Assembly: GCA_021234155.1 (NCBI GenBank)
Contig: JAJEKV010000072.1
Span: 4,813,620-4,877,619, forward strand
Reading direction: 5' to 3'
From: Isoetes taiwanensis
Lineage: Eukaryota; Streptophyta; Lycopodiopsida; Isoetales; Isoetaceae
DNA: 64,000 nucleotides
In this document: positions 894-32,728 of the stretch, piece by piece
Numbering within the stretch: position 1 is the stretch's first letter
Layout of the letters: each line of letters opens with the position of its first letter
Position numbers and translations under genes: made by a program
Notes under the pieces: model-generated
Databases searched by the model: none
The model's input: only the letters and a program-made list of their open reading frames with translations
What the model was told of the DNA's origin: nothing

Positions 894-916
894 GGCGGAT
901 TTGGGGTCTCAAAATG
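894..916 (+). repeat. Left terminal inverted repeat of the giant element
   Basis: Twenty-three bases starting GGCGGATTTGGGG, perfectly complementary to 32706-32728. The preceding bases are CATTA. Confidence 0.7.
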
Positions 917-1967
917 ACATCCTATCAGCCATTCCACGTCATATCTCCGCTCCTTTTTTCCCATGCCACCTAGGATACCAAACTCTCATAATTACAGATT
1001 TGCTTGGAATATTCTCCCGGAATAAGGGGGATCGCACATTTATGGCGCCATATGTATTTAATTCTGTTGGTTGTCAGACAGACTCATGCAACACGTGGCG
1101 CTTCTAAAAAGCCACTTGCATTATAGCATACCGACAACTCATGACGGTGTCTCTTGGTTTGTCAGATACCAAGCATGCGCATCACCGATCCTTGTCTTGT
1201 GCTATTTTAATTTAGAGGCCATGGCCATACAAGCTTCCCGCCTTCTACATTTCAAAATTTGAATGTGTAGGTTGAAGCTTTGTATCAGACTTTCATTTCG
1301 AGGCGCTGCCATTGCGCCTTAATAGTTCGTAAACCGGGATCTTTACTTCATCCCAATACAGGCTTCCCGCCCCCCTACAATTCGAATTTTGAATTTGCTT
1401 AATGTATAAAAGCATGAATTGTAGGAGAATGGACTTTTCGATTTCCATATGCACGTTGCAAATTTCAAAAACGAGGTTAGTAATGCGGGACGCTCGCTCA
1501 TAATGGCTTAATTGTCTTTGGGGCATACAAATTGTACACCTTCATTTTCGGCCGCGGCGATCCACGCAGATATGGAATCTCCAAATGATGTGTGGATAAG
1601 GATCCAACCCGACTACATTAATATGCTCCGGTCTTCAATCGCAAAAAGGAGGTCTAAAAATAAGAACTTAGACCTCGGCGTGTTGCGCCTTGGCGTGCTC
1701 AAAAGTGTCGACATCCGGGCGGATGGCGGTTTATATCCATTGATCCGTTGAGTGGCAAGAAACCGCCATTTCGGGACGTTTCAAGTTTAGTCCGATTTTG
1801 TGGTGACGGTGAACTCGGCCTCCTGGGATATTGTGAGAGATTGAGAGAGGATGAAGGCATTCGAATCGAATACTACAGTTCCTTGAGATGAGTCGCCCGA
1901 TTGTCACAAGAGAATTATAACTTAAAAACCAGCCTTTTTTTTCTCTCGCTTCATTACTCCAATCAGA
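917..1967. other. Left subterminal region of the giant element, no gene recognised
   Basis: About 1 kb without a convincing ORF. It includes short inverted pieces such as 'cttcccgccttctacatttcaaaatttgaatgtgtag' near 1230-1270 and a related copy at 1360-1420. It probably contains the promoter of the transposase-like gene that becomes recognisable at about 1968. Confidence 0.4.
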
Positions 1968-3693
1968 ATGAAGGAAAGGAATGATGGCTTGGGGAGAGAA
2001 ACTTCTTTAAGATACGAAGTGGACAAGTCCAAATTGGTGATAGGGCAGCTGCAAGAAAAGATCCAAGAGCTCGAAAGAGCAAACTTTGGGCTTCAATATA
2101 GGTTAAAGAATTTGAAGAAAACACCCTTGGCTTTAAGTAGAAAGGAAGAAGCACTTTTGACCGATAGAGGAACTGAAGTTTGGATCAGGTGCATTCAGAC
2201 GTTAGGTCACGGCCACAAGGTCCGTTTACAACACTAGCAAAGGCCAATTAAGATCTGGGAAAACTAGAAGCAATCTTGGTTACGTAGTGAAGAACCTAGC
2301 GACAAACAGGGAGATAGTGGACATGATTTGCAGCCCTACAACTCTTCTCTCAAGAAGATGGTATTGGTAATGGTACTAGGAGAGATCTACAAGAAGCTAG
2401 AAGAAGATGTACTGATCGCTTGTGATGATGTGGGCATCAAGAGGGCTTTGGTTACCGTTCTCTATTCAAGCCATTCCACCACGCGTTGAAAAGAATGGGC
2501 ACAAAAAAAGTATTCGGCTCCACGCCCACAAATTGTCGAGAATACAAGGGTTACTAGGACAAAAGATGGTGTATGCCATATTAGGAGAGATGGACCACGT
2601 TGAATGTGCCGGGTCCCGCCATAGCCATAAAAGATAAGAATGGCAAGGATTGTTGTGATATAGTTGGAATGAATGAACGCTAATAATCTTTGGGTTGACT
2701 CGGTTACTCTCTTACAATTCCTTGTCAAATATTATGACTTAATAGTGCGTAGAAACTAATGGTGAGATTGAAGTTTGCATAAAATTGGATGAAATGGAAC
2801 CGACCAAGTTTGAGAAGTATGAGAGGGTATCCGTTGTCATCATGAATAGAGCAATTGAGAATGCAATTGCACATGCTAAATCAAAGAGCAACAAGAATAA
2901 TAAAAAAAGATGTAGAGGACGGACGACGAGGAGAAGAAGCGTGTCGAAAAATGGTTCTTATGTCAATCAAGATGACACCGGTGGTTAGGTCTCTTTAAAG
3001 TTAGAAACCCACGAGGTATTGAAATGGGTGTTCAATCAAACCCGACATCCCGAGTCTAATATCTAGATTCGAGGGAGGGAAAAATTGCAAGTAGATCACT
3101 ATGGATCTTACAAAGTAATTTTTCACTTGGCGCCCCGATTTAAAAAAAAAACCGAGAAAGCAATGTACAACATAAGTGGAGGAGGACAAGGAACATGCAA
3201 AAGTTGTCTCAGATCGCAATCATGCAAGGAAATCAAGTAATCGGGAAGACTTGTTTCAACCTTGTCCCTTAACCAAGCAAATGCTCCTAATAGAGGAGAA
3301 GAAGATCCCAAGTTCCATGGCATTTTCCCCATTCCATTAGAGAGGGTTCATATCCGCACTTTTGCGGCTTTGTGAGAATCATCGACAAGATGATATTTTT
3401 GAGCCGCAGATTCGTGTGGAACATTTCGCACAAGAAGAGAAGAGAGGAAGGAATTAGTAGAGTTGAACATGTTCTATCGTATGTGTTTGCATGATGGCAA
3501 TGTAAGATTAGAGCTCGATGAGAAACGGGCAGGAAGAACAAGTGTGCCTCGTAAGGTGTCAATTGGAGGGGTGAAAGCTTGACGCTTCATAAAGAATCAT
3601 AGAGAGGCTCTGAACGAAAACCAGATGGGAGAAAAGGTCTATGAATTTGGAAAATTGCTGGTTGATGCGGAGCAGGACCGCACAGATGGCGTT
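1968..3693 (+). pseudogene. Transposase-like gene, 5' part, frameshifted and split by an LTR retrotransposon
   Basis: The first readable part (1968-2237) encodes an 89-residue coiled-coil segment with heptads such as LQEKIQELERANFGLQYRLK. Coding-like pieces continue in changing frames: KKMVLVMVLGEIYKKLEED near 2355-2415, a lysine/arginine-rich segment near 2890-2960, and FHGIFPIPLERVHIRTF near 3315-3370. The last is reminiscent of the conserved block preceding the catalytic part of uncharacterised transposase-like proteins of plants and invertebrates. The final frame is open from 3583 to 3693 and continues without a stop into 15265-15780 if the intervening retrotransposon and one GCGTT copy are removed. 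Family name is not certain. Several frameshifts or unrecognised introns are present, so this copy is unlikely to be functional. Confidence 0.55.
3689..3693 (+). repeat. Target-site duplication GCGTT (left copy)
   Basis: GCGTT directly precedes the TGTGAC start of the 5' LTR and is repeated directly after the GTCACA end of the 3' LTR at 15260-15264. Five-base duplications are usual for LTR retrotransposons. Confidence 0.9.
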
Positions 3694-5416
3694 TGTGACG
3701 TTTCCAAAGACAAAGATATCGCTCCCCGTGACGTATATTGTAACCGCCCGCCACGCCAGCATTACGCCACCCCGACTGACGTGTACGCCAACGTGTAGCC
3801 AAGTGGGTAGCCCCTAGGGGGCAACTTGCTAAGAATATGCATTAGTATTAATGTGCACATTTTCCAATGTACACATTAATGTGGGCACACATTTCCATGT
3901 GGCCACTTGATGCCAAGTGGGCCATACCCATAGGTGCAATTAATGTGCACATTTTCCAATGTACACATTCATTAATGTGCACACATTTCCATGTGAGCAC
4001 ATTTGGGTGCACACATTTCCATGTGGGCACATTTGGCCACCTAGCCCTTAAAGGCAAGTGGGCCCTTTTCCCAATTATCCCACATGCCTAAAGGGGATAA
4101 TTGGAAACCCTAGCCAACCCCCTTGTCTATTTAAGTAGGAGAACCCTAACTTGCCCATTTTCGTTTCTAGGGTTTTAGAACTTCTGTTTTGGGCTGCCTC
4201 AACGGCCAAAACCGCCCTCCCGCACTCGGGCCTGAGAGGATTGCAACGTTAGTTTCCCTTGATTCAAGCGTTCAGCCAGGATGGTCGAGCTCGTGTCGAG
4301 GATGAACTCAAGGATGGGGTATTTAGGTAAATTTAGTAGTCTAAACCCCATTTCACCCATCGAATCAAGAGGGTTTAGCCTCTTAAATTGCCCATAGCAG
4401 CCCTCTAGATCTCTAGATAGCAGATTCTAACTAAAGAACCTAACTCTATGATGTAGATTAGATCTAGTTCTTTAGTTCTCTGTGAAGTATATGTATGATG
4501 TATCTCTATGAACTCCTTGTATTGGGAAGGGGGGTAGAGACCCAAAGCTTTGTAGTTGATGCTCCTAGAGTAGCCTCTCTAGCACACTGTGAGATGCGGC
4601 TTTGTGCACAAGAGCCACACAGGTTGTGGGTGAAGGGGCGGGACCGGCTTATAAGGAGATTCGTGTTCGACTCGAAGGCGATCCCTATGGTGTGTTAGTC
4701 TTTGCTTAGGGATCATTGTGACTAGGTCTAATGGCTTGCCCGCTGCGTGTGGGCAAGGCATGGGCTCGACACTGCGTGAGGTAGTGGATATGACCTTCCA
4801 TTGAGTTCAAGTCAGAATAAGGCAAAGGCCCTCTAGTCACCTTGAGTCAAGATGTAGATCTCGGAGGGAGTGATCCCTACCCGCCCCATCGGAACCGGGA
4901 GATGAAACCGTGAATAGCCCTTTGGCTATGCATCCCGCTGGCTACTGATCGGAGTCCCAACACTTTTCAGCCTACCGCAAAAGTGTGCACGGGAGGGGCG
5001 GATGGAGTGGACAACCCTAAGCCATGTTCTTATGCCGCCCAAATCCATTGCCATGAATTCCGCCCGCAATGAACTGAGACCCAAGCCGCCGGCCCTCCCT
5101 TTGAGTCCGAGCCTTGGGTAGGATTTCCTCTATGCATTGTGCCGATCATTGTCTTTGTGTGATGTGATGTGCCACCCGTAAGGGTGGGTATATGTGTTGC
5201 TCTTATATACCCGACATGTATGTTTACGCCAAGCAGCTGTTAGGTAGGCCCCGAGGGAGACGGGGTACAATGACCCTTTCACTCTTCCCACCGAACCCGG
5301 CCACGGTTGCGGTGTTATGTGAAGGGCCCTCAGATTCGGCATGGAGCTGGTATGGGGAAGAACTCCTCATTTTGTATCACGGTGAGTGCACCGTGATGCG
5401 AGTAGGGGACGCCACA
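3694..5416 (+). repeat. 5' LTR
   Basis: The LTR runs from TGTGACG to GCCACA. It contains a U3 tract of repeated 'acacatttccatgtg' and 'aatgtgcacattttccaatgtac' modules (3840-4040), a TATA-like TATTTAA at 4128-4134, and a U5-like region shared with the LTR remnants at 1-578 and about 47200-47781. Compared with the 3' LTR it has many small differences, mostly in G+C-rich stretches. Confidence 0.9.
4128..4134 (+). promoter_or_regulatory. TATA-like box of the 5' LTR promoter
   Basis: TATTTAA lies 435 bases into the LTR, downstream of the repeated U3 modules, and is conserved in the 3' LTR at 13977-13983. Start of the R region is expected shortly downstream. Promoter role is inferred from position. 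Confidence 0.5.
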
Positions 5417-5417
5417 A

Positions 5418-5430
5418 TGGTATCGTGAGC
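5418..5430 (+). other. Primer-binding site (initiator Met tRNA type)
   Basis: TGGTATCGTGAGC lies one base after the 5' LTR. It resembles TGGTATCAGAGC, the usual plant initiator-tRNA primer site, with differences in the middle. Confidence 0.75.
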
Positions 5431-5617
5431 AATGTTCTTGGAGACCAAGAGCAAAGCACCGACCATGCTCCCAGAGTACTAACTTGATAGGATCCTCAAA
5501 CCTCGAGTAGCGGGAAATTTTTTTCTGGGGTAGAGCTAGTAATTATCTAAGATTAGGATAATTAGAGAACATAGGCACTTAAGAGATCCTACTAAATTTC
5601 AGGCACTCTTAATAATG

Positions 5618-6712
5618 ACTCCAAGAGTGCGCCAGAGCATGTTAGGTTCAGACCTAATGGCCCTCTCAAAGCACTCTTAGAGTAGTCACCCCATATGAAC
5701 CCTAGAACTTGGCCTTAGGAACTCCAAATGGTAAAATAAAAGATGAAATCCCAATCAAAAAGCTTCGAAATAGCTAGAATTATATGTTAAAAACATCTAA
5801 AAACATTATACAAGTCACTTTTTGAACACGATTTCCAAGAGTGCGCCAGAGTATAGTTAGGTCCCGACCTACCCTCCTCACAAGACTCTTAGAGTCATCC
5901 CTAAAAAGTGACCTCAAAAATTGATCATAACTTACTCAAATGGTAAAGGTAATAATAGAATCTTGTTTATAATGATTAAATTAGTGGGAAACGCATGTTA
6001 AATTGTGTAAAGGGATAAGTTTAGAGCGAAAGGGACAACACCTCTAAGGGTGCGCCAGGCATAGTTAGGTTCTGATCTAATACCCTCCTCAAGATGCTTA
6101 GAGGGGTTCGAGAGAAAATAGTTGAAGAAGACCTAGCCCGATTCGAGATATGGAGGATTTCATCAACAAACCAAGAAATTAAGCAAGGCGTAGATGGAGG
6201 TCGCGGGCAACACTTGAAGACTCATTGCGCGCACGCTCCCGCTTAAAAGACACCGAGAGACATGAGACCGGGCGTAAGTACATCAAGAGGACAGATAAAT
6301 AGAACACAAGCCGCTTTTTGTAACTAACGTGTTTATATGTGATGTATGAAAATTTAATAATAAAGATATATAGTCGATTTAAAATGTGTATTCATTAGGT
6401 ACAAAGAGACGAGCAAATGCGATATTTTTGATCAACGATTCCAAGAGTGCGCTTGAGCATAGTTAGGTCCCAACCTAACCCCCTCCTCACAAGACTCTTA
6501 GAGTCATCCACCAACCGGGGCCTTGATTAGCCCCTACTTGCTCCAAACGTAGTAATAAACAAAGAAACTTGCATTTAGGAAGAAAACTAATAGGAATTTA
6601 CCCTCCCAAAGGGATTCTTGGCATCCATTAGGCGTAGATAGGCCAATGATTCCAAGAGTGCGCCAGAGGCCACTTAGGTCCCAACCTAACACCCCCCGCG
6701 CACTCTTAGAGA
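5618..6712 (+). repeat. Tandem array of five hairpin-bearing units in the retrotransposon leader
   Basis: Five related units lie at 5618-5683, 5832-5895, 6041-6106, 6438-6505 and 6650-6712. Each has an outer pairing (CCAAGAGTGCGCC with ...ACTCTTAGAG) and an inner stem GTTAGGT-loop-ACCTAAC with a four-base loop. Starts are spaced 214, 209, 397 and 212 bases, so the underlying period is about 210 with one unit missing. Sequence between units is only weakly similar ('gaactccaaatggtaaa', 'gagctccaaatcgc'), so the hairpin is the better conserved part. Position just after the primer-binding site suggests a role in the RNA leader such as packaging or dimerisation; this is inference. Confidence 0.7.
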
Positions 6713-9700
6713 CGTCCCAATTTTTCAAACCCCATAACTTGAGCTACAGAGCTCCAAATCGCTTGAAATTTGTTGCAATAGGACCGTTAGACAGCCTAGA
6801 ATCCATTTATGACCTCAAATTAGGCTAGAAATGTCAAACTTTAGCTCAAAATGACCAAAATTGCTCAAACCCTTGAATTGTTTTTCCAAACTATGGTTTG
6901 TTTGTAAATAGAAGCATACCCCATTAGTACCACAAGTATTGCTCGCCCAAAGCTGATGCCTTACTCCAAGGTAGAAGTGCCCAAGAACACCCCTTTGTTA
7001 TAGTCATCTAAACCTCAAAGATAGCAAATCAAGTCCAACTGTTGGTACATCACCTCTGCCATGCCAAAAGCATAAACATTGACCTAATTTTGTGTCCTTC
7101 TAATAGAGTTTGACCTATACATACCGCCACATTCACACTCCCTATTGCCGGGATACCTAGAAAGGAGCTAGAGTCTAGAGCTGCCCAAGTCACTCTCGGT
7201 GTGTAGAGATTGGACCCCCCAAACCAACTTTGCTAGGACCTTAGAGTATGCCTCAAACATCGTGGAGGTCCCTGCAAAACAAACCCTCATTTCATGCCAT
7301 ACCACACGCCTAATGTCCATAGACTTGTAGATTAAAGAGATGTCTCCAATAATGCCGCCGAGCCATCTTGCTTGCTTATAGAGCCCAAAAAAGGTAGGAG
7401 AGCCCTTCAAGTAGACCCTTAGACTCTAGGATATACGAGAGTTGCTTTCAAGTACAGGCCGAGCCACGAGGACGAGCGAGAGGCTTAACTTCTTGAAGAC
7501 ATCAAGGTCCCAAACCATGTACAAACAGATAAGAAGAGGAGACCGAAAAGGCACCCAAGAGAGGGAAGCACAACGACAAACACCTCAACCGACAAACGAG
7601 TAGAACAGACACCACCGACCTGTCATCAATCTCCATCAAATGGGAAGAATATTGGTAACCAACGGCACCAAGAATGTTCTAGATGTCAACCTCCGCTACC
7701 ACGCCCACGAGCTCACATCGAAAAAAGAGGATCTCAACGCCTTCACCAACTCGACGCGCACATGAGTTTCAAATGGAAGAACGCGAGACAACAAAATACG
7801 TGCGGTGAAGATGTTAGGCATCGATGTCGCTAGCATCACGAGCTAGGGCCGAGGGCATAATCTTCCGCCGAGGAGACAACTCATGGCGCTTACACAGTTT
7901 ATAGAAACCGGAGGGAAGATCACCACGACCTTGCAGCCCAAAGCAAAGCCGCCAACGCCAACAAAAGGAGTAACCAAGCTAGGCAACCACAAAGCACCTA
8001 AGGCTGACCAAGATGAGCCTCCAGCCCCTTGCACCAGCCAGGAGAACTTTCATCGGTTCCAAAAGGTAGGAGACCATGAGAGGGAGGAGACGATATCAAG
8101 GAACATTTCGACTCAAGGCCCTCAGACAAGACTAGGGGCAAGACCAAGAAGGAGAATATTCTCGCTCAAACAGAATTCCGGACCCGGGAACACCTAGAAA
8201 CCAAAAAGGAAGGATTGGCTTTACCACGCCAGCCAAGGAGTGCGTGACTCGAATGGAATGGTTAGGACCCAAGGGACGGAGGGAGACGACCTAGCCGCCA
8301 GGTAGAAATCACGCAAAGGCTTACCGTATGAGCTACGGTAAGTGCAATGGAGATGACCACACTTCCAGCACGTGAGAGCCACCCCTAATGAAGCAAAGCC
8401 CAAGCAACAGAGTCGCGACTCGGAAATTCAACTGCGGGGGAATGACAATGCCCGCCCTCACCACGACATCTCGTGAGCTCTCAAGACATTCAAGAATGCC
8501 CGACAGCAACAGCCAGTGACCCTACTCAAGCTCGACCAATGGCACCGCTCTAATAAGCAATCTTGCAACAACACACCGCATGTAGGGACGTGAGCGGTTA
8601 CCGCATTCCTCGCGACGAACATACACAACAAGGAGGAGCATCTTTTTCAAGGGATCACATCGACGAACACTCTTCGCAACTTGAGGTGATCAGCTCGGAT
8701 CAGACATAAAGCTCAACAATAGTAGCAAGATCTCAAGGAATCCCTGAGTCAACCCCGAATCTAAGAAGATGCAGCAAAACCAAGAATCAAATGCGATAGG
8801 AGGAAGGGAAACCTAGAGGAGTATAAATAATTAGGTAGATCTTCGAAGTTGTTTTGCAAAAGTGGATGAATTAAAATCCCAATGTAAATGCGTATATGTC
8901 TATTGTATATCTAGGATGTCCACATATATAGTGGAGAAACATGGGTTTAAAGTCATGTTTTACTTGATTGAAGCGCTTAGATCGAAGCTCCTTCACTCGA
9001 CTACCAAAGGAGGAAGCAAGGAGGCACAACTATAGCCCAAGATCAAAATGGAAGAGCAACTACGAGGGAGAAACGACGAGAGGCCAAGCAAACCTTCAAC
9101 TCCAAACACTTCGAAATGCCCTCAGCGTAAGACCGCCGGCCACCCAATGTTAGAATAAGAGACAACACCCATCATGTCAAGATCATCAACGCTGGGCACT
9201 GTGACATCGTCGGCTAACACTACCTCTTGTAGCGATTGGCAAAGACTTGACTAACTTATGACATGAGTGGCCTCAACAATGGAAGGAGGAACACCCCACA
9301 TCAACGCGAGCCAACTAAGAAGGCAACATCTCGACGACCATAATCCCACCTTGTGGTAATATAGGGTGATGCGCTATGACACGCGGTATTAGATGGAGAT
9401 GCACGCATTTAAAGGCACCGCGATGAGGAGACATGCCTCCAACAACTAGGTGACGGCTTCCGCCGTACTCCTACCAAGAATTAGAAGAGAAGAAGCCGAC
9501 CATATCTCCGACATGTGGCACGCCAAACGCCCAAGGTAGAAGCATTCTAATAACCTTAACGACAAGGCGATAGCAACTGAAGCACCTTCTCGCAAAAAGA
9601 GAGTTCAAGATAATAGCCAAGCTATTCAACGACAAGAGTATATCTAAAGCGTGTACTTCTTCAACTCAAGGGTCAAGTTGCAAGAGATATAAGGATCCAT

Positions 9701-12700
9701 CATCCCGACAATATAGCCAGCAGGAGGAGAGCCATGATGCTTTACTTGCCGGAGAGACCTATATGCATGCATAGAGGGACAAAGGTCGTGAACCGAAGCT
9801 GGAGAAGTGCTAGCAACCGACTTCTTCCACGAGCTCCCTAGAGGCAATGGGAGGACCAAACCTGAAGAGCACAATCAAAGCCACCGGAGGGTACCTCAAG
9901 GCAAGAAGACGGATAGCACCGCGGGAACGCGGTTAACGCCAAGCCATGCGATCGAGGGATCAAACGAGGAAGTTTGGAAGCTCGATGGAGAACCAACTAG
10001 GTGAGGCGAAAGCCGATGACTTGCACGCCGCCTTGCATGCAACTTGGTGAACCCAAGGATGAACGATTCAAAGAACAATCTGTAGAAGAGAACAACTCCG
10101 AGGAGTATAGCCAAAGGAATCGCCAAGACGGCCTCAAGAGATTTCCAAATAGCTTCAAGTATCATGAAGGGGGGGAACAATTATTGCCCGAGAACGGGAT
10201 CAAGAAGCGCACTGAAATGTCCGGAGCATCAACGACAAGCACACCTTAGTTAGAATGTGATGCAAAGCGGTTGTGCCATACCGACAAACGCCTAAGGCCC
10301 AAGTATTTCAACAAGTTACCCGGGGTATGAGTGACGCATACAAATAGGAGGATATAGATCGTCAACACCATTGCACCGGGAGGAACACCGATGACATTGC
10401 CAAGGAGTAGGTGCGCAACTTCGGAAGGGAGGCACAAGGGAGACCTAATAGCTCTAGTAGTATAATTGTAATTATGTAAGCTATATGTTTTGCATGTATA
10501 GTTCCCTTGTTATTCCTTCCCCTCCCATAGCGTAACAGATCAAAGGAAGAGATGTTATGCAAGTTGCGGTGGGTGAAGCAATCAACATCGCCAACACTCT
10601 TCGGCAACTCGACGTATGAGGCATCGATGGAGTTTAAGAAACAATATCGATAATCGAGTCGCCCCTTAGCCGCCAAGACAAAGAGTTCAAGATGAAAGAT
10701 CTCTTTCAACGGGCGCCACCTTCAGCTTTTGAAAAGCGGCATGGAAGATTTCAAGTGATCAACTACGCCATCAAAGCCACCAGCAATGAGAGGCTCCTAG
10801 CTTAACAACGCCAACCTCTACTTCAAAGAGCAGCCACCGCCAAGGAGACCAAGTATCGGCGACTTAAGAACGTTACCTTGCTCCTTCAAGCAAAGTAACG
10901 AGCCGGATGAGCTTCTAGCAAGCTCAAAGATCTAAGGCCACGGGGCCTAGTAGGTTAAATGTATGGATGGTAACATCCATATTGGGATTAGAAGGCATTT
11001 CGGATGATATTCTCACGAAAGGATTTGCCCCAATATTGAGCTAAGCGCCAAGATTGGGAAGGAAATGCATAGGAGTAACTATAATTATACACGATTGTTA
11101 ACAGACATCCAATGTATTGAAACCACTTGGTGAGATTGATCTCTCACTAAGAAGGAATCATTACTAGGATAATTGTTGACCATGTATAAATCTAGTATCT
11201 CCTAAAGAATAATCCAAGCGAAAGAAAAGAAGTAATCTAACAAGTCCGCCAACTTGTTACGATGACATCAATTGGATTGGTAGGAATATTCCAAGAGTTT
11301 AAATAACTAAGAAAGGGGAATCTCTAAAATAATAAAATAATAGTACATGCAAGGTACATCTAAAATAAGAATTATAGTAATCAAATAGTCTTTTGAGACA
11401 AAAGGAATTGTCATGATGACAAAACCTTGTGGTTTAGAATCGTTCTAACTAAGTAGGTAACCCATGTAAATAATAAAGCGTATAACCTCTTAAGGGGAGA
11501 GAATAGATATGACGTTGTGTACAACGTCATTGAAGGGGTTGAGGACCAATTTCTTTTCAAGAAAGTGGGAGGGCTCAATCTTATGATTGAACGCATTTGT
11601 ATCGAATTGACCGTAGAATAGAGTTCACTCCCGGCAATGGCCGTTTAATAGAGCGTAAAATAGATAGATACCTTAGGCTCGGGAGGCCTTCAACGCGTCG
11701 AGGCCCGACGTAGTAGCTAACTACACCAATGAAGTGGAGCAAAACTATGGGAGCAATGCAACGACCAAGTCATCTCCAAAGTACTCAACGCTTGACTCAA
11801 TGGGTGGATCGTTCTAGCCTTAGGTAAGGTGTGCGCATGTATTATAAGCTTTAATGTGTCTTATTGATAAGTTAAATATAGATCCTAATAAGTTGCATAG
11901 AAATTGTTGCATGTATATGTATCATAGGGAAATAAGTTAAATAACAACGATAATGTGAGGTAGCATGTTAATTGATCCTTCGCAGGGACGCTAATTCCTT
12001 CCAAGGATAGCTATATGACCTCGGGGTCCTTATAAATATAGATAGAAAATAGAATTCGGATATACTTAAGTATATCTTAGGGATATATTTCCAAGGGTAA
12101 TGCAGGACCCAAGGAAGAGAATAAGAAGCACATCTAATTCTTGTGTATGATAATTAAAACCTTGTCTATGTAACAATAGGTCTAAGTAGGGTTAGTGTTT
12201 AAATAATCACATCTAAAAGTCGTTAAATATTGCAAAGCTTAGAGTAAATTTAATTGTGCTATCGGAAGTAATATATCCAATACTATGATAATGTTAATTC
12301 ATAAATATTACCTTAGGGTAATTATGTTAATCACATGCATTAAGGGAGCCAGAAAAAAAAAATTGGCCGTGCATGTCGATTTGTGTTTAGATTAGTTTCA
12401 TGTGTAGTTAAGATTAATCTGCGCATGCAACCTATGCTTGGTATGGATTGCATGCGTTGTTACCGATGATGAGACCACTACGGTGATCTCTAGGGCGTGG
12501 TGTAATGTCAATGTAGGCATGACCGCGTTTCCGCCTGGACGAGTGGAAGGTAGATTAGAAAGTCTACTTCTGTCCCACGGAAGTAGATGACCTCGAGAGA
12601 AAGGAGGTCATTAAGGAATGCATTGATAGGAAAGGCACCTTTAGCCCCATATATGCTTTGATAGGAGGAATCTATCCTTCACGCCCCCACGGGAAGGATA

Positions 12701-13470: not shown

Positions 13471-13535
13471 TGATTGCGTGTTAGGAAGATTCCAAGGTGG
13501 GGAGAACCCCGATGTTTGCGGACAAACATCATTTC

Positions 13536-19574: not shown

Positions 19575-19675
19575 TAAATACAAATAAAATAATTTTTATT
19601 AGTAATTTCGGTAATACAATCTATACATAAATAATTTTACCGATACAAGTTGGAAAATATATAACTTCCAATTTT

Positions 19676-20780: not shown

Positions 20781-20829
20781 CCACCCCAATTCTGGGTCCA
20801 CACCTAAAAACAACAGTAACAAAAAGACC

Positions 20830-21560: not shown

Positions 21561-21654
21561 CACCACCACCTGGAATATTATTTGTGTGCTCAACTTTGGG
21601 AATGTATCGTATTGTTTTACATTCGTGAAAAATAACTTCAACGGTTAGATCCAA

Positions 21655-21955: not shown

Positions 21956-21985
21956 GATGGTGCTTTTCTAGGCGCTATTACAATT

Positions 21986-23549: not shown

Positions 23550-25540
23550 GAAGTAAGTTTAAGACTAATGGAAGCATGCATCATACTGTATTCAACCTAA
23601 TATCCAGATACCTATTGCAATGATAATGCGCTGTCCTCACAAACTTATGGTTTCTTTAAACTATATGTAGTTCAATACACGGTTTTACGCCACTCCATCT
23701 AAAATAAAGGCAATGTCCTATGTGTTGTACGCCCAAAGTACTCCTCCCATGTCAATTTCAAACCCTACTTTCAAACATAAACTATACTAACAAATAATTT
23801 ATATATCATGCCACCATCCGATTTCATGATTTATTGAGCTCAAATTTAAGATTCGTTCTTTCTTCACAACATTAGCTAATATCGTTTTGTTGCAATCCAC
23901 ACTCAACTGGGACAACCACATACATTTTACATCACAAGCTTACCCTTCAACTTTAACTCATTCAATCTATCAAGCATCACCTTATGGCAGGTTATACTCT
24001 TGCCACACAGAATATGCCTTGCAACGTCGCATATGTAGAGACCTATTGTTACTCCTTTTTTTTTTTCGAATATTTACTTATTTCAACATATAAATATCCC
24101 ACTATGGCAACATCGCATAGGACGTTACTTTAAGGAATCAAATGTTCTTAGTCCCAATACTGTTATGGAGCCCAAAATTCTATAACCCTTACCTATTTCA
24201 TCTACAATGCTACTTCAATACATCTTGCAAACCTGTTTGTAGTTGAAATGGTCGAGAACATAGGTTTGAGTGACTTGGTTGCATTTTACTGGACTGATAA
24301 GAATCTCATTTTACAAAAGAAAATGAAATGTTTCCTTCAATACGAGAAACATGTGCACAATCAAGTCCAGAGCTTAGGTTTAGAGTGACTTCGGTTACAT
24401 TTAGTTGGGAATAGGTATTAACGCTTAAATTAGCCAGTTAGTTTACAATAATTTCCATGGTCCTTGGGACGTGCATGAGATTGTTTTGCATGGTCCTTGG
24501 AACTCATAGTTGGGTTAATCTTGGCTACTAATGTGGCCTTGATTGATGTTGGTAATTTGAGATGTAAGTTGTTAAAGGGCTAATATCTATAATAAGAGTT
24601 GCGCCTTGGCTACTGCTTGAATGCTGCTAATATTCTGATTGCAGGCAATAAAACAACACAGCCAATAATTATTGATGGGCTTGGAGCACCTGACTAAGGT
24701 CAGATTCGCTAATCCTCTTGGATATTCATGAAACATTGGTACATAAATGATATTCATTTTAGGGCCTGAATCTAAATTCCTTTTACTTGATTACACTTTC
24801 TAGGCATTATGATGGGGGAAGGAAGATTAGGATTCTATGTATACATGCTCTAAATCATTTATCAAAAGAATAAAGTTTTATCCACATGTATCTAAGAGAT
24901 ACATTTGCAACAAGATTTGCAATTTATTGTTAGTCTTTTGACATGGTATAGGATTGTGCTAAGTGCCAAACAATTATGAATTGGCAGCATTACAAGTTTG
25001 AACATAAGTTTCAATTTGCTGTAGAATCCAGGTTAATTCTATTTCTTTAATGATGAAATGGTGAGATGGGTTAAGTTTCTATTTTGTGTTCATAGAGAAG
25101 GGTATCTTAAGTTTGCCTAGAACTCTTTGGGATAGGTTCTTCATGATGTGGATCCATTGAGGCTGATGAACATAAACCCTATCATTTCAGATTGCACCAA
25201 AAGCATTTTGTGGTTGTATGTAGAGCCAACATATTTGTTTAATATATTGTTTGAAGGCAATTTGTTGATATATTTGGTAATTGTTGGACCAAGAACCAGA
25301 TGGCATACAAATTATTTCATATTATGATCACACTTCAAAGGCAAAGTTTGTTCTCTATCGGTGTGCCTATTGCACCTTTGTCGTATTCAGTACAAGCCTA
25401 AACTATCACTCACATCAATCAATCCCGTAACAGTAGACATTCCATTATCTATCCATTTCCATCCACACTATGAATTCCATTATTCAATCCATTCCATGCA
25501 CCTCCACGACTAAATCTACCCATTCCAAACGTCCACGATT
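23550..25540. other. AT-rich element interior, no gene
   Basis: No convincing coding sequence or structural RNA is seen. The stretch leads into the Helitron 3' end at 25544-25572 and is probably Helitron body. Confidence 0.4.
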
Positions 25541-25543
25541 AAT

Positions 25544-25572
25544 GCCCGGCATCGCCGGGCACACGTTTCTAG
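25544..25572 (+). mobile_element. Helitron 3' terminus
   Basis: A perfect 7-bp GC-rich hairpin, GCCCGGC-ATC-GCCGGGC, is followed after 8 bases by CTAG and then T. This matches the standard Helitron end (hairpin about 10 bases before CTRR, insertion before T). The 5' TC end was not located. Confidence 0.65.
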
Positions 25573-28500
25573 TTCCTTATATAACTTGATCCGCCAAATC
25601 TAAATTGGCATGTGGGATATATCATCGAAAATTTATAAGAATCCTAAACCTGTGAATGCCAAGATCCAGTCGATTCGGCCAAACTAACTGTGCAATCATG
25701 TTCCAAACCTGTCGAATAACCTTGTTTAATGCCAAGAATGCATCAGAGAAAAGGGGTGTTGAGGCAATAGATGCACGGGGAGCTTGCCAACGGAGATGGC
25801 AAGGGTGCATCGGGCAGGCCTTCCTGGCAGTGCTCCTCTGGGAGGCGGTATGCTAATGCCTTCCCTCTTGGAGCTTGGTTTCCCTATCCAACAGTTGAAT
25901 CCTCCATTGAAGGACCTTGCTTCGCGCAGGTTCAAAAAAATCCAAGATCGGCCTGAGAGAATTTATCAAACCGTGAAGCATCATGCAGGCAACCATGTAG
26001 AAACCCAAGTGTTTCGTCATTCGGGTAACTTTCAAGATCACTTACGAGCGTGTTTAGCATTTATAATCATATAAAGAATTTTCAAGTGCCTGGGCCTTCA
26101 AGAACCTCTCTAACCAGTTCCCCTGATGTATAGTTTCTTAGTTTGTAATTTCCAGTAGGTTCGAACTTCATTTTAGCATCTTTGTGTTTTTTTTTTTTGG
26201 GGGTCCATGACTAGATAGGTTGCAAAGTGGCAATGACGAGCGAAAAAGTCATGATTTAAGCCAAATTCCAAGTTTTAGGGTTCATGGGCTTCTCCTTCAC
26301 GTATTTCTTCTGCGTATTTTTGTCATATAGTTGTATTTACGACATTTAACAATGCTCCCCAAGGTTTTTAAGTAAGGAACTAAGGAAGTCCTTACAGACT
26401 TAATGATCTACCATCATGGGAATTCCATCTACAAGTTTGTGCCTAGAAAATTCCGATGGATCTTCAAGATTTTTCTACAAGGCCTTGGCTATGGGGCTTT
26501 AATCCAAGGTATGACTTCCTTTTAATGAAGCAAGGGATCAACATAAGATATGCATGAAAGACATAGTAGAAAATAGTGAAAATAGTAAGGCAATGGAAGA
26601 TGATGTAGATAGCGTTGTAAAAGTTAACTCGTGATATATTTAATAATTAAATTTTTATCCCCGGCTCATGGTTTAAAATTAGGGGGTTTCACCCTGGAAA
26701 ATTTGGCCATCCTTAAAAAATTTCGATGAGGTAAAATTAAGTCCGAAGTTTTTTAAGCAACTTTTGCAAAATGAATTTAGAAAATAGGCCTAAAAAAGGG
26801 GTGATATGATTTTGTATATACAGTAACATAAAAACAAAGGCAGCATTTTTCCCAGCCGGGTGGCCCACTACCTAATATGTCAGTGTTTGTAATATTATTT
26901 CATCAGTGACAATGTATTGTTAAAGGTAAATGTCTAGGCATGATATTTGTGTTTGGTTTTAAAAAATTGATGGTTGTTGAGATAAAATAATGAAGGGCTC
27001 AGATTGCGATCCAAGTCCCTCAATCTTATTGGTTGCTTTTCTTTGTGGTTTTGGTGGAACAGAGAGGCGGGAACGAACTAATATGGCGGGAGGTCGAGTA
27101 GAGAGGTCGCTTGCCGGATTTTCTAGCCTATTTGAAGCAGAGAACTATGCTTGCAAGGCTTCCATTCGTCCAAAACTGCTCGGCCCACAGCTCTGAGAAT
27201 AGCAGCTCTCATCCGGACTGTTGCCAGAATGGATTTTGAATCACAGACATCACATAGTGCTAGCTCTTCTCGTCACTGAAGTGAATTTGCAAATGCCGCA
27301 GCAGATCTTCGCCATCTTTGCAGTGGGTATGCTCTGGTCTTGAGAAATAAACGAGAGTCTTGAAGGTAGGGCCTCTGCGCTCCTGCTACTGGCTAATGTA
27401 CCAAGCAGATTTATGGAATGGGTCTCCATTATTGCACCAAGCATTGAAATCGGGCTACCAGTCTGCTATTGCCAACACACATGCTGGAGTTGCAAAAATG
27501 CTGGAGTGCTTTAGCCTTTCTTCGGCTCCCAGCGTTGGAGATGAAGCAGTACAAATGCTGAGCCATCGCAGTGGGCATGCAAACCTGTTCCATAAAATAT
27601 TTGGCCAAAATTGCCAACTATTCTCTCTGTACGAAGTTTGGGGCATTTCTGCAAAATAGCAGAAGGGGTTCTCCGCAAGATCCAGGTATTTGCTGGCCCA
27701 AAATATTTCTGTTCAAGGTTTAGACTTTGCTGGTGATGCCATTTTGGTGCTGCATAAAGCCAAAATGGGTGTTTGTTTGTGTTCCAGAAAATAAGACCGA
27801 GGTGTAAGTTCTTCTTGAGGAATTTATAATGAGCTGTAAGTTTATCCTTTATCCTTTCAACTTATTCTGAGAACTATAGGAGCTTCACAGATTCTTCTTT
27901 AGAGGCATTGCTCAAATTTGGTTTTCTTTTTCTTATTTTCTAACCACACATGCCCTTTTTTGTCTTCCAAGTTCCTTCTCGAGTTTGGGTCCATTCCTTC
28001 AAATGCCCCACTGCTTCATTTTCTTCTCTGATCCAACTGGCTCCATCAAATTCAAGCTTTTCTGCAGGTAAGATCTTATTCTACTGTACTGCTGTACCAT
28101 GTTTTTTTCCCAGAAAAATCTGTCTAAAATTGGTTCAAAATATCATTTTTTCCTGTTTGCTTTTATCTTGTTACTCACATTTCTTTTTAAACAGGGGTCT
28201 TTTCCACTACAAGGTCTTTTTGTAGTTTTCAGATATTATACCTGGCTAATGCTCCAAAGGAAAATCTGAAGTAAAAAAAAAAAAAGGAGTTGCAATGCTT
28301 GTAGTATGCTCTGAAAAGGTTGCAGCAGGACTCCAGCAGTTCAGGGCAGAGGAAAAGGCATAAATGGTGTCATGCAAGTATGGCTTAAGGAAATACTACT
28401 AAATTGGATGCTTGTCATCTTTTGTTTCTTTAGTTAGTAATTGTTTTTCTCTAGCTTACTATGCCTAGAATAGAAACATTGAAAGCAGGAACTCTATGCA

Positions 28501-28619
28501 TTAATAACTACAAATAAGAACAAACATAAAAGTAAGACTATGGAAGGCACAACTCATGCTTTAAGAACTACCATATGCCTAATGGATTTTTTTGGGTTCG
28601 ATTCCCGAAAGGCATTTTT
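25573..28619. other. Element interior, no gene recognised
   Basis: Short ORFs occur on both strands (for example 25784-26074 +, 27360-27659 +), but none carries a recognisable domain and they overlap antiparallel. Region 26990-27860 has higher G+C and could be another captured gene fragment. I could not identify it. Confidence 0.35.
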
Positions 28620-29276
28620 TAAAAGAGAACTCAAGAACAACACTACTTTTTTTTTATTTTTTCTGCAAAAACAACACAAAAACAACACGTGAAACAACCA
28701 CTACTTTTAAGGAATGACGTGTTAGTTTTTTTATAACTACACCTGAAAGTATTTATTTCTATAAAACTATATGTGGATTTTATGTAAAACAATACTAAAA
28801 AACAACACCTATTTTTGAATAACCACATTTTTTTCTTAAAACCACATATCATTTTTTTGGGGAAACCAACAATTGAAAACAATATAGAAAAAAAAAAAAA
28901 AAAATAGAGACAACTACATATAGTTTCTAGCAATGTCGGACAAAATTCTATACGTAGTTTTTCCGTGTAGTTTTTTTTGGAAACAACAGTTAAAAACATG
29001 TGGACTTTTTAAGTTTTATTAACAACCACATGTATTTTTTTCACGAAAACAACACCTGAAAACTACAACTACTTTAAAAAAGCAACATGTCGAAACACAT
29101 GTAATTCCTACGTGTAGATAATTTTGACAAAATTCTACACGTAGAGTTTTTACAAAAAAACTACACGTATAAAAGTTTGACTAAAAACTACACGTTGTTT
29201 CTAGCAAATCCGGACAAAAAACAACACGTAGTTTTTTTGTGTTGTTTTTTAGTAAAAAAGACACTGAAAAACAACA
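28620..29276. repeat. A-rich subterminal minisatellite (right)
   Basis: Imperfect repeats of 'aaaacaacacgtg...aaaactacacgtag' type, inverted counterpart of 20830-21560. ORFs called here are low-complexity artefacts. Confidence 0.65.
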
Positions 29277-29300
29277 TGTGGACCCAGTTTTGGGGTGGTA

Positions 29301-29777
29301 GTGAAACGGCAAAGAGAAATAAGTTACCTTCTTAAGTACAAGGACGCAGCCAGGAGGAGCCCGTTGCACAACATTCTTGAAAAACATCTTCGCTGCTTGC
29401 AAATGGGAAGCCGCCTCCTCTAGAGCTGGTTTTGGAATCCACGAGCCAGGGAACATCTGCAAAGGATGTGCGCTGAGACCAAGCGGTCCGGGTGAAAGCT
29501 AAAGCAACCTCGCGATAGCATCCAAGCTCGCTACTGTTTGCCTGCCATGATGTCCAACTCCTTGCAATAGAATGGATAAATTGCAGTCGGCGCAACTTCC
29601 TCGTTGTCATGTGGGGCAGATGCATACCATTCCAGGAACTTCACATAACAATCCATGGCGAAGCAGACGACGAAAGCAAGAAGATGTTTAGGAGCGGTAA
29701 GGCGCCACGCCGAACTCAAGTAGCCATTGTCGATTATGAAAGGGACCTGACCTTTGTGGGGAGATTTGTCCGTACAT
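29301..29777 (-). pseudogene. Large acidic-protein gene, 5' part
   Basis: ATG at 29777 directly follows an (AACCCT)3-like tract on the minus strand. After an early frameshift the readable product includes VPFIIDNGYLSSAWRLTAPK, HLLAFVVCFAMDCYVKFLEW, AIYPFYCKELDIMAGKQ and, after another shift, WIPKPALEEAASHLQAAKMF and FKNVVQRAPPGCVLVLKK. A donor-like GTAACT follows at 29328. The remaining gene is at 19676-20780 beyond the inserted TA-flanked element. Domain identity is unknown. Confidence 0.5.
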
Positions 29778-29799
29778 TTTAGGGTTAGGGTTAGGGTTG
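29778..29799 (-). promoter_or_regulatory. Telo-box-like (AACCCT)n tract before a start codon
   Basis: On the + strand it reads TTAGGGTTAGGGTTAGGGTT (29779-29798), ending against hairpin H8. On the minus strand it immediately precedes ATG at 29777. AAACCCTA telo-boxes are known promoter elements in plants; here role is inferred. Confidence 0.4.
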
Positions 29800-29866
29800 G
29801 ATCACACGACGCGAAAACTACTATGTGCAACAAAAAAGCACAATGCTTGCTGCGCGTCGTGTGATC
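29800..29866. repeat. Intergenic hairpin H8
   Basis: Perfect 14-bp arms GATCACACGACGCG (29800-29813) and CGCGTCGTGTGATC (29853-29866). It separates the large acidic-protein gene from the H3-tail-like gene. Confidence 0.85.
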
Positions 29867-29944
29867 CTCACGTATAACATTAAAAAAAAAAATACAAAGT
29901 GCGAACCTAGGCTTCTAAGAAAGAAATGGACTAAGAGATTAAGC

Positions 29945-30876
29945 TTATAAAGCCATTACATTAAAGAATATTATACATATGAAAAAAACACAAAGGCACT
30001 TCACGGCCTTTTTTTCCGGGAAGTCTTTCTTCTTGTTGTATTCACCATAAAATTTTGACCATAGTACTCGGGATCCCTTTATCGTGAAGACGCGCATGTC
30101 CTGGGCATGATCACCCGCTTGGCATGTATTGCCGCAAGTCTGCGAGTCCTCGAGCAGGCATCGACACCAACCGCTTCGAAGCCATGTGAAGAGCATTTAA
30201 GGCGCTTGCTTGACCCCACAGAATCGGTATGATGTATCGCGACCACACTCTTTGCAGAACCTCTTTCACGAAAGCCGGCAAATGGGAGACTTGGAATGAC
30301 CATCTCGATTGCTCTTCCGATACTTTTAATCTCGCTGCTTTTTAATGCTAGGCTTAGGTGTTCCGGCTTCCGGCCACTACCCTCACCCACCCCAAAGATT
30401 TTGGAGGTTGTTGCTCACCGACTCTTCCGGCCGCCTCCTCACCCCAAGCATTTGCGGTGTTGCTGTTCTACCGACTCTTCCTACGGCCGTCTGCTCACAT
30501 TACGGTCGCCTTCCCCTTTTCGGCGTTGGGCCTCCTCCTTTGATTTGAAGGTCCCGGGCGCCTCCACGTGGAGGAGCGCAGGAAGAGCAAGAAGAGGCGG
30601 CTGCCCAATAATTAATCCGGCGTCATATTCTGCTCGCCGGTCTCTCACATTTTCATCCTCCATCTCCGAACCGGAGTGCACCTCCCTACTTACTCCCGAG
30701 CTGCTTCTCCCACCGTCTGTCATGCGGATTTCTTTTCTGGATCTTCTGTTAGGCATGGTCGGAGGAGGAGAATCTCTATCAGAGACTTCAGGTTCAGATC
30801 AAGGAGGCGGACCAATGTAATCACCTGGCCTTACACCCCCTGGATGGATCCTTGCGGGTTGCTTAGTTCTTGCCAT
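29945..30876 (-). pseudogene. Gene whose product starts like a histone H3 tail
   Basis: ATG at 30876 gives MARTKQPARIHPGGVRPGDY, which shares MARTKQ, AR, GG and a proline at the same positions with histone H3 (11 of the first 17 residues). H3 lysine 4 is kept; the residues at H3 lysines 9 and 14 are I and V. An in-frame TGA at 30799-30801 interrupts after 25 codons; the same frame then continues through SEPEVSDRDSPPPTMPNRRS and a basic/serine-rich region to 30481. After frameshifts, further coding-like text includes RGRAIEMV-type sequence near 30300, CSSHGFEAVGVDACSRTRRL near 30150-30190, and MRVFTIKGSRVLWSKFYGEY near 30050-30100. The rest matches no histone fold. TGA could come from CGA by CpG deamination or be an error. 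Confidence 0.55.
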
Positions 30877-31067
30877 GGCTTCTCAGCGGATGGCGCTTTA
30901 TACTACGAACACTAACAAAAATAGACAACTGGCAAGAGATAAATAGTAAAAAACAGAAGTTAAAGTAAAATATGATGGTAACTTTTTTAAATAACTGTAC
31001 GGAACTCTAAAAAAATATCAAAAAAACATCGGACAAAAACACAAATAAAAAACCGAGATTCAAAGCG
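30877..31067. other. Short intergenic spacer without hairpin
   Basis: This AT-rich spacer is the only boundary between adjacent genes in the array where I see no GATCACACGACG-type hairpin. The genes either side could be co-transcribed. Confidence 0.4.
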
Positions 31068-31820
31068 CTAGGCGATAGACAATTTCTTGTTGATCGCGAA
31101 CTCACTAAACTTTACATTTCCCTCTTGCCTGTAACCAACCCTAATGCCACCAATGAAATAATGGAAGTCGTTAGCAATCTCCTCTGTCTCCATTAGCACT
31201 CTTAGCTCTGATAATGGCCATTCGATTTCCATGGTGGCTGTGTAAATGACTTTCTCCCCTCGCCATACTCGAATATCCACCGCATCGGAGTGTCTGCTAT
31301 GGTCCTCAAACGGCTCCCAAAAAGTTGTGCAGCCTCTCTTTTTCCGTTTCCTTCGTTCTAGTTGACAATTAACGTATAAATATTGTTTTGGAAGAAAGTA
31401 TCTGAACTTAAAGGAGGACTTAACTACGCGGCACTCTGTTAGTTGACCGGATGATTCGTGGAATCGAACATCCCAGGTCGGAACCAAAAATAAGCCATCC
31501 ACGGCAGGGGGGAGAAAGCACGTATATGTCTTCGGAGCTTTTCGAACTTCCTGCGCCATCTGGAATATGTTAGCAAATACCTCAAATGGTGTGAAGATTT
31601 GGAAACTCATCCTCACGCCTCCATTTTCAGACATTCCTGCTTGCACCTCGTCAGCCAGGCATTTCTTCATTGCAATTACATTGTTCTCATTAGTCTGTGG
31701 CTTACAAAGTTCACTTAAAGGGGGCAATTCAACCGGCCTCAAGCTCGGTTTCCGACCTTTACGTTATAATCATGCCTCAGAAAACCGGATGCCTATACCC
31801 CGCAAGGTCACGGCATCCAT
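31068..31820 (-). CDS. Unknown 225-250 aa protein of the transposon
   Basis: An uninterrupted frame of 225 codons (31742-31068) ends in a stop; the best start is ATG at 31820 (MDAVTLRGIGIRFSEA), joined after a small frameshift near 31765. Features include VPTWDVRFHESSGQLTECRV, a basic patch ERRKRKKRGC, WEPFEDHSRHSDAVDIRVWR and a C-terminal FHYFIGGIRVGYRQEGNVKF. Alternating hydrophobic residues suggest a mostly beta structure. No family is recognised. It is the best preserved ORF of the element and lies next to hairpin H9, about 0.9 kb from the right end. Confidence 0.55.
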
Positions 31821-31977
31821 ACCTTGAAAAGGACAATTCCGATGTCTATGTGATACACGACAAGTACACTACTAATACTTTCGATCGGAATGACATCCAC
31901 GACGCCCGATAAACATAAACCCGCACAATAAATTTGTTTGTAAACACGTGTCAACGAAAAGAAATGAAAAATAGGAG

Positions 31978-32045
31978 ATCACACGACGCCGAAACTATCT
32001 CACGCAGGTTAAGTAGTCGATGATAGCTTCAAGGCGTCGGTGATC
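31978..32045. repeat. Intergenic hairpin H9
   Basis: The left arm GATCACACGACGCCGAAACT (31978-31997, continuing ATC) pairs with GATAGCTTCAAGGCGTCGGT (32022-32041, continuing GATC), allowing a few mismatches. It lies upstream of the unknown protein gene, the last hairpin before the right end. Confidence 0.65.
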
Positions 32046-32705
32046 CGATTAAGGTGGTTACCATTTGCGGGCAATTTTGGGAAGCTGTTTTTGTGGAGAT
32101 TAGCTCTTTGGCCATATCGGAAGGGGTATATGCATGTCGTATTGTTATACTTTCCACTTTCCGCCGCTAGAATTCAACTTGAACTCTTTTATCCTACCTA
32201 TCCAATGTGTCCAAGACGCCCTGATCGCTTTTTTCGCTTAACTCTATGCTCACCCTCGTTGATGGCAGCATACTCACCCACCTAATCTATTGAGACAAAA
32301 CCTCCCACTTCTTCACCTTGGGAGTTCTGTAGAATGGGGCAAGAACACGTAAATTACAGGAGACATGGATTGCGATGAGGAGGAAGGCGGAGAGGATGCA
32401 CGTGAGAGGGCCGAGTGACAAGATTTAAGTTTGGCGCCAAAATTTGACAAGGGAGTTGGTGACGCTGACAGTAGGCGGTCAAAGTCACCATTATTTTGGG
32501 CGGCGAAGCGACTCCCGAAAAATACGGGCCATAAAAATGGTTGCAATAAAAGCGCATGCATCCCCTATGAAAATATGCCATGTGGATGCCAAGTAAGCCT
32601 GCTCATCCTTCTACCTGCCAAGTAATACTGACTTTTGTAAAAAAGGCGCAAACCTGATTGGTCCTGGCGAATCTGACGTGGAAATCTTTAACCCAAGATA
32701 TGGGC
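32046..32705. other. Right subterminal region of the giant element
   Basis: No gene is recognised. Short overlapping ORFs on both strands are not supported by composition or motifs. A CCACGTCAG-type motif near 32675 mirrors one at the left end. Confidence 0.4.
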
Positions 32706-32728
32706 CATTTTGAGACCCCAAATCCGCC
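32706..32728 (-). repeat. Right terminal inverted repeat of the giant element
   Basis: Exact complement of 894-916 over 23 bases, followed by C and TAATG, mirroring CATTA at the left end. Confidence 0.7.

Follow-up and report, generated by a model that had tools for sequence, protein, structure and literature searches.

Can a DNA transposon of a land plant carry some eight genes of its own? One or two genes are the rule in cut-and-paste elements of plants. The question is raised by 64,000 nucleotides of DNA from Isoetes taiwanensis (assembly GCA_021234155.1, contig JAJEKV010000072.1, positions 4,813,620 to 4,877,619; hereafter the window), in which perfect terminal inverted repeats (TIRs) of 23 bp enclose a transposase-like gene on the plus strand and, convergent with it, about seven genes on the minus strand. 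We consider, with a probability of roughly 0.7, that an old and now dead copy of a large autonomous, unusually gene-rich land-plant DNA transposon lies at this locus. That all these genes lie in one TIR-bounded element, as a preliminary description of the sequence had proposed, is supported by the ends, by a motif restricted to the core of the element, by two insertions flanked by target site duplications (TSDs) and by the raised average CpG content that the core pieces share. The count of about eight genes, the transposase and about seven others, is partly confirmed, on a single decayed copy. Of the earlier interpretation as a whole, the multigene TIR element stands, whereas the RNA hairpins, a TA-flanked insert and a four-way paralogy do not.

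Evidence for a single element between the inverted ends

The two TIRs (GGCGGATTTGGGGTCTCAAAATG) match perfectly, as first described, and no further 23-mer within five mismatches of them is present in the window. Directly outside, TA at most (2 bp) is duplicated, which fits with GG..CC ends, and an alternative reading gives a longer TIR, CATTAG(G)GCGG, that matches in 28 of 29 columns with one gap and leaves no duplication. The element may have duplicated TA in a palindromic CATTAATG target, one end carrying an extra base, or it may possess extended TIRs of ~29 bp (CATTAG..CTAATG) without duplication. Transib elements and the RAG transposon duplicate 5 bp; neither candidate outer boundary shows a 5-bp repeat. 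CACTA termini with a 3-bp TSD were likewise not found on the outer element, whose ends read GGCGG or CATTAGG without a 3-bp duplication. Comparison of the joined flanks within the 64-kb window revealed no empty site.

Adjoining the left end, positions 751–884 form an inverted repeat, imperfect and rich in TTCTAGAA/GAATATTC, a weak 19-nt version of which (E 0.055) is found again where the right flank starts. Within the element, a palindrome TTTGGCGCCAAA (32430–32441, single in the window) lies close to the right end and two copies of CTTCCCGCC (at 1234 and 1363) near the left end; we take both sequences to resemble E2F sites, which would presumably suit expression in S phase.

An extra ~20 kb inside the TIRs is explained by two insertions, each flanked by a TSD, and removal of both together with one TSD copy each leaves a core of 11,733 bp, in agreement with the ~11.7 kb first estimated. 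The first insertion is a long terminal repeat (LTR) retrotransposon that starts with TGTGACG, ends with CGTCACA and apparently interrupts the plus-strand gene, the frame of which resumes beyond it. Its LTRs (3694–5416 and 13549–15259) are 91% identical, corresponding to a Kimura two-parameter divergence of 0.086 (65 transitions and 73 transversions over 1692 aligned sites), and a Pfam scan of 12 of its open reading frames (ORFs) gave a best E of 0.091. Transitions are fewer than transversions, which would be odd for a methylated plant element.

The second insertion, also presented earlier as datable, is indeed flanked by a TSD, but by AAA rather than TA. It begins with CACTACCACCCCAATTCTGGGTCCACA at 20776 and ends with a near-complement of it at 29303, and because of its termini (CACTACCACC at the start, GGTGGTAGTG at the end) and the AAA duplication we class it as CACTA-type. 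A Pfam search of all six frames between 20776 and 29303 found no match at E 0.1, to a CACTA transposase domain or any other, and the insert may be non-autonomous. Its subterminal parts (20890–21540 and 28640–29260) hold many short GT/AC-rich repeats, perhaps transposase-binding repeats.

The hairpins that were originally described as exclusive to the element are built from a 14-nt motif, TCACACGACGCGAA. At up to two mismatches it has 15 matches, mostly in inverted pairs and all within 15793–31992; both inserts, the left core piece and the sequence beyond the TIRs are free of it. Order-1 Markov sequences gave a mean of 0.15 and a maximum of 1 (20 windows), the motif having been selected from the very window tested. 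Weaker matches are mostly due to chance, since at four mismatches 35 were observed and 20.2 expected. Ten inverted pairs, which we call dyad units, were delimited, eight of 62–63 bp, one of 65 bp and one of 47 bp. Both arms have at most three mismatches in six units (those starting at 16721, 17833, 18468, 18681, 19511 and 29802), one arm has four in the units at 15793 and 17498, and in the units at 19391 and 31979 the second arm was placed by eye from the spacing. Independent dyad events number fewer than ten, because two of the gene cassettes that carry them (cassettes 3 and 4, see below) are duplicates. Three TTAGGG repeats at 29777–29799 adjoin the unit at 29802.

Are the dyads RNA hairpins or DNA sites? 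Their arms pair in 80.5% of cells, compared with 18–49% when the register is slid by 1 to 3 and with 79.2% when the 3′ letters are shuffled, and covariation between the arms is no better than in shuffled sequences. Folding z scores of −1.9 to −7.3 (seven of the ten units folded) are put down to the conserved arms. Pairing within the inner loops is not significant (own versus swapped halves, p 0.076, nine of ten units being long enough; Stouffer z −1.6 over all ten units and −0.5 over the eight non-duplicated ones, with −2.2 for the unit at 19391 alone), and Rfam returned no match at gathering scores. Selection on RNA hairpins is thus not supported; restriction to the core at up to two mismatches holds, and an RNA role may exist. 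Conserved arm sequence, conserved spacing and free loops form the pattern of a DNA site bound by a dimer, and the dyad reads as a putative DNA dyad site beside genes.

Base composition gives a further line of evidence. For the three core pieces the observed/expected CpG ratio is 0.85, 0.96 and 0.92, compared with 0.53 in the left flank, 0.46 in the right flank, 0.69 in the LTR insert and 0.54 in the second insert (core versus flanks, p 1.2e-9, with 22 core and 63 flank bins; each core piece alone versus flanks, p ≤0.0021; core versus inserts, p 1.7e-4), in bins of ~500 bp of which neighbours are not independent. Leaving out the dyad units does not remove the excess (pieces B and C, 0.88 and 0.89). 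In the core, TG and CA occur about as often as expected (0.98–1.10); the right flank has a surplus of both (1.27, 1.24), which the short left flank lacks (1.09, 1.08). That the three core pieces have an undepleted average CpG content in common, a feature that the preliminary description did not predict, is independent support for one element. On average they share a history that differs from that of the surrounding DNA: the family either evaded CG methylation for a long time or came from another source. A change in CpG that coincides with the TIRs was considered and rejected. At 500-bp resolution no abrupt step is visible at the ends: single core bins drop to 0.51–0.60, the first bin of the right flank reaches 0.74 next to 0.72 in the last bin of the core, and the second insert has two bins above 1.0.

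Could unrelated inverted 23-mers surround a host gene cluster of unusual composition by chance? The blurred CpG step at both TIRs, a target duplication of no more than 2 bp and the presence of further exact inverted 18-mers in the window would agree with this. However, the 18-mers listed fall within or pair with reading frames of PPR proteins, form a local palindrome or lie in a T-run, whereas a perfect inverted pair of 23-mers is expected ~3e-5 times per 64 kb (arithmetic for equal base frequencies); the TIR-bounded segments differ in average CpG from both flanks, and the dyad motif is confined between the TIRs. We regard such a coincidence as very improbable.

Alternatively, the ends may belong to a smaller, ordinary transposon with a transposase alone, the minus-strand genes being a captured foreign or host block carried as passive cargo (Pack-type). 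Plant elements are documented to capture gene fragments (PMC6431247), and the transposase part at 894–3693 holds no dyad unit. Yet the higher average CpG is common to all three core pieces while four ORFs in the flanks range from 0.23 to 0.51, the first dyad unit starts 12 bp past the transposase stop codon, and no recognised host domain occurs in the minus-strand frames, which makes passive cargo an unlikely explanation.

The transposase-like gene

What kind of transposase may have moved the single multigene element that we favor? The C-terminal part of the plus-strand gene has an H-x4-H motif at residues 59–64, with a glutamate 20 residues after the second histidine, and a G-x10-E motif. Against PDB, this 172-codon part gave 15 distinct sequences at E ≤10, all of them RAG1; the best match, at E 0.045, covers 41 residues. 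The alignment spans both histidines and the glutamate, which from the chain positions we take to be the zinc-binding histidines and Glu962 of RAG1. The whole read-through gave ten PDB matches, nine of them RAG1, and the Pfam RAG1 family matched the gene at E 0.025 (score 13.2, cut-off 25). Among the controls, the reversed sequence had no match and two shuffles had two and one (best E 0.51), none of them RAG1. A CxxC (CKSC) lies upstream in the frame-shifted part and is not placeable by alignment. An AlphaFold2 model of the C-terminus, made without an alignment, was too poor for use (mean predicted local distance difference test score, pLDDT, 49.9), and no Mutator-like transposase was matched by Pfam in the read-through at E 10.

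We compared these features with those of the CMCT clade, which includes EnSpm/CACTA, Mirage, Chapaev, Transib, Plavaka, Lanisha and ESTA (Kojima 2025, PMC12730594): two catalytic aspartates, C(2)C, H(3-4)H followed by a glutamate, a TSD of 2–5 bp and mostly CA..TG termini. H(3-4)H and the glutamate are found on the sub-threshold alignment, whereas C(2)C and the two aspartates are not placeable in the broken part. The features of the element fit the CMCT clade best, and the plus-strand gene likely encodes a DDE transposase of this RAG1/Transib/CACTA clade, a grade kept at likely because the RAG1 matches are sub-threshold and a search of 5.8 billion proteins gave no homologue. The initial statement that the cargo genes cannot be assigned to any known transposon is softened accordingly, the transposase pointing weakly to RAG1/Transib/CMC.

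The collections searched for relatives, mainly prokaryote and virus, yielded none. Plasmids searched with 894–3690 gave no match. The first 17 bases of the TIR matched 14 stretches in genome contigs, all in prokaryote records, and these were discarded because ~30 are expected by chance in 257 billion bases (arithmetic).

Minus-strand genes and a histone H3 tail look-alike

All genes but one look broken, the damage of small proteins 1 and 2 being judged from the ORF list alone; the 231-codon frame has no visible damage (Table). Cassettes 3 and 4 are 73% identical in DNA and have in common a dyad unit, TATAAATA 24 bp downstream of it, the coding start and, beyond the 3′ region, a second dyad unit. 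Four putative coiled-coil paralogues had been proposed here. Two are clearly paralogous, namely the cassette proteins, and small protein 1 is weakly similar to one of them (29 residues, E 8e-4, in BLAST with few ORFs and no composition correction), but small protein 2 has no similarity to the other small proteins at E 1e-3. Small protein 1 and the large acidic protein also align along their acidic runs (E 1.2e-6, low complexity).

For the protein of the 231-codon frame, a protein search gave no match at E 1, PDB gave seven matches that were set aside (best E 1), NCBIfam none and PHROGs two below threshold (best E 0.05), and an AlphaFold2 model made without an alignment was too poor (mean pLDDT 33.9). 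Other Pfam matches (FCD at E 0.055, INO80F at E 0.047 and others) fell below cut-off, had no supporting context and were rejected.

A compact and mostly one-strand array of genes, with small and acidic proteins, their own TATA boxes and intergenic palindromes, also brings to mind a DNA virus or virus-like element (of the Polinton type or another) that became integrated and has short inverted ends by chance, and the average CpG content is indeed unlike that of the host flanks. None of the five Pfam families matched in the minus-strand frames (E 0.14–0.79) is viral, however, the TIRs measure just 23 bp, and the sole signal of the plus-strand gene is transposase-like. In viral contigs, one of two proteins searched gave no pattern match and the other three, none of them confirmed, and no match to the TIR or to the exact dyad pair was confirmed either. 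We hold a viral origin to be quite improbable.

A further minus-strand gene is a 291-codon frame that contains 5 in-frame stops, compared with 12 and 16 in the other two frames. Its protein starts with MARTKQPAR (MARTKQPARIHPGGVRPGDYI) and is identical to the histone H3 tail, without gaps, at 11 of 21 positions, which bears out the likeness noted at the outset; the next best of 3059 peptides from ATG codons in the window has 7 identities and the maximum in 30 random windows is 8, a large excess even though the comparison was picked post hoc from the preliminary description. Residues A1-R2-T3-K4-Q5, A7 and R8 of the tail are kept and position 9 is an isoleucine. Because Pfam detects no histone domain in the frame, we consider the protein a tail look-alike and not a histone. 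In fission yeast, K9M in one H3 gene dominantly blocks H3K9 methylation (PMC5030085). As a speculation, the protein might be a decoy that diverts chromatin readers or methyltransferases. No transposon-encoded H3 tail appeared among the matches listed on histone mimicry and transposons or on H3K9 decoys in the open-licence literature.

How might such an element have worked? From the sequence we infer a transposase family, a single transposition unit, binding of a factor at the dyads and a role against silencing, which together suggest the following scheme. A CMCT-type DDE transposase would bind to the ends, of 23 bp or possibly 29 bp, cut there and reinsert the element, with a TA duplication of at most 2 bp as the trace. 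About seven minus-strand genes, each with a dyad site (14-nt arms, usually 62–65 bp) at one or both ends, would together form an element-specific regulatory unit. A factor, probably encoded by the element, could bind the dyads as a dimer and keep the element's own promoters active, by analogy with VANC (see below). Later, the LTR element would have entered the transposase gene and the CACTA-type element the acidic gene, and the genes would have decayed.

The genes of the element possibly have anti-silencing functions. A more detailed proposal, which we put forward as doubtful, is a land-plant CMCT lineage with its own anti-silencing kit, consisting of a dyad-binding protein and an H3-tail decoy that keeps ARTKQ and has an isoleucine at the position of Lys9. 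Such a decoy could engage the readers of H3 or sequester H3K9 methyltransferases, compare H3K9M. If this were true, a long escape from CG methylation, or horizontal transfer, would have left its trace in the undepleted core CpG.

Several observations weigh against a single multigene CMCT-like transposon. The outer TSD of at most 2 bp is indistinguishable from an extended TIR lacking a TSD, and within the window there is a single copy, with no second element and no empty site. The similarity to RAG1 lies below accepted thresholds (E 0.045 in PDB, over 41 residues, and 0.025 in Pfam) and drops to E 0.3 for the full read-through, and the read-through found no homologue among 5.8 billion proteins, a collection presumed poor in plants (whole sequence, with words from the first 500 residues, at E 1; residues 410–706 at E 10). 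A Pfam search of the minus-strand frames returned nothing better than E 0.14. The left core piece (894–3693) has no dyad unit. Besides the dependence of neighboring CpG bins, the low core bins and the high first bin of the right flank, the inserts too exceed the flanks in CpG (p 8.8e-4).

Table. Features of the proposed element in window coordinates (minus-strand genes are mostly remnants)
Feature	Position	Strand	Remarks
Left TIR	894–916	+	23 bp; GCATTA just outside (possible TA duplication, or TIR extended outward as CATTAG)
Transposase-like gene, 5′ part	1926–3693	+	Several frameshifts and stops; from reading frames; no homologue found
Nested LTR retrotransposon	3694–15259 (3689–15264 with direct repeats)		GCGTT 5-bp repeats at 3689–3693 and 15260–15264
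Transposase-like gene, 3′ part	15262–15780	+	172 open codons, then TAA; H-x4-H, Glu; G-x10-E
Dyad unit with extra half-site, between convergent genes	15793–15855; half-site 15917–15930		Right arm 4 mismatches; motif scan
Small protein 1, acidic end (remnant)	16017–16571	-	ORFs; 29-residue similarity to protein 3
Dyad unit	16721–16782		Motif scan
Small protein 2 (remnant)	16930–17342, approximate	-	ORFs; starts MASSSGS
Dyad unit, degenerate	17498–17559		4 and 3 mismatches; motif scan
Cassette 3	17826–18539	-	Upstream dyad unit, TATAAATA (18436–18443), MASSSSSSKR start, frameshifted, conserved 3′ region, downstream dyad unit
Cassette 4	18674–19464	-	Organised as cassette 3; TATAAATA (19359–19366); frameshifted
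Dyad unit	19511–19573		3 and 2 mismatches; motif scan
Acidic protein gene (remnant)	19700–29790, limits by eye from frames	-	Asp/Glu repeat 20503–20557; split by CACTA-type insert
Nested CACTA-type insert	20776–29303 (20773–29306 with repeats)		Ends CACTACCACCCC...GGGGTGGTAGTG; AAA 3-bp direct repeats
Dyad unit	29802–29864		0 and 1 mismatches; motif scan
H3-tail-like protein	30001–30876	-	291-codon frame, ATG at 30876, basic C-terminus
231-codon open frame	31071–31763	-	Intact-looking; no relative found
Dyad unit upstream of 231-codon frame	31979–32043		Left arm 2 mismatches, right arm by eye
Right TIR	32706–32728	-	Perfect match to left TIR; CTAATGA just outside

Relation to known systems and the surrounding sequence

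Multigene DNA transposons are already known, among them the EnSpm elements of Chondrus (PMC6431247), fungal elements with TET genes (PMC12730594) and VANDAL (PMC10398659). One or two ORFs are usual for En/Spm, whereas in the red alga Chondrus crispus enlarged EnSpm elements are 16–20 kb long and have 4–5 ORFs (cited in PMC6431247). Like these, to judge by their description, the Isoetes element carries several genes in a plant or plant-like host and probably belongs to the same broad clade, but its outer ends are not CACTA.

To ESTA, again by its description, and to the CMCT clade the element is comparable in a weak RAG1-like transposase signal with H-x4-H and the following glutamate, in ends that would be compatible with a TA duplication or CA..TG, and in additional genes with a possible role against silencing (in fungi TET/JBP; PMC12730594). 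ESTA is, however, described from fungi (PMC12730594) and the present element is from a land plant, with no TET/JBP domain in its minus-strand frames, seven other genes and dyad sites. RAG, ProtoRAG and Transib resemble it in the spacing of the two histidines and the catalytic glutamate; RAG and Transib differ in that no 5-bp duplication, no kelch domain (Pfam, minus strand) and other ends are found here.

A model for the use of the dyads is offered by VANDAL. The Arabidopsis protein VANC binds to short motifs that lie in noncoding parts of VANDAL elements, from which it removes silent marks (PMC10398659), and both systems are multigene DNA transposons with short specific motifs in their own noncoding regions. 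VANDAL is Mutator-like and its motifs form tandem repeats, in contrast to the inverted pairs of the present element, in which no Mutator- or VANC-type domain was found in the plus-strand read-through (E 10) or in the minus-strand core frames (E 1), at a sensitivity reduced by the damage to nearly all the genes. No land-plant CMCT-like element with this gene set is among the literature matches listed, and most catalogues of transposable elements lie outside that literature. A plant RAG1/CMC-like element with about seven further genes, if the reading is true, would extend the few multigene cases, and it would allow a direct test of transposon resistance to silencing, for which the histone-tail look-alike is a specific, testable part.

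The surroundings of the element contain a combination of PPR repeats and a probable E motif that is typical of land plants and supports nuclear DNA of such a host. The 778-codon frame at 60370–62706 matches Pfam PPR_2 at E 1.6e-76, and its E motif scores 24.0, below the cut-off of 27.3. Between 35.5 and 43.3 kb lies a tandem duplication of ~3.73 kb, 91–100% identical over several blocks of 255–300 bp, parts of which resemble PPR coding repeats by look. Positions 1–524 and 47242–47754 form a direct repeat that is 70% identical, of which a part of 60–90 bp also occurs in both LTRs of the nested element. Finally, a near-perfect hairpin with 32-bp arms and a 10-nt loop, unrelated to the dyad motif, lies outside the element at 50895–50968.

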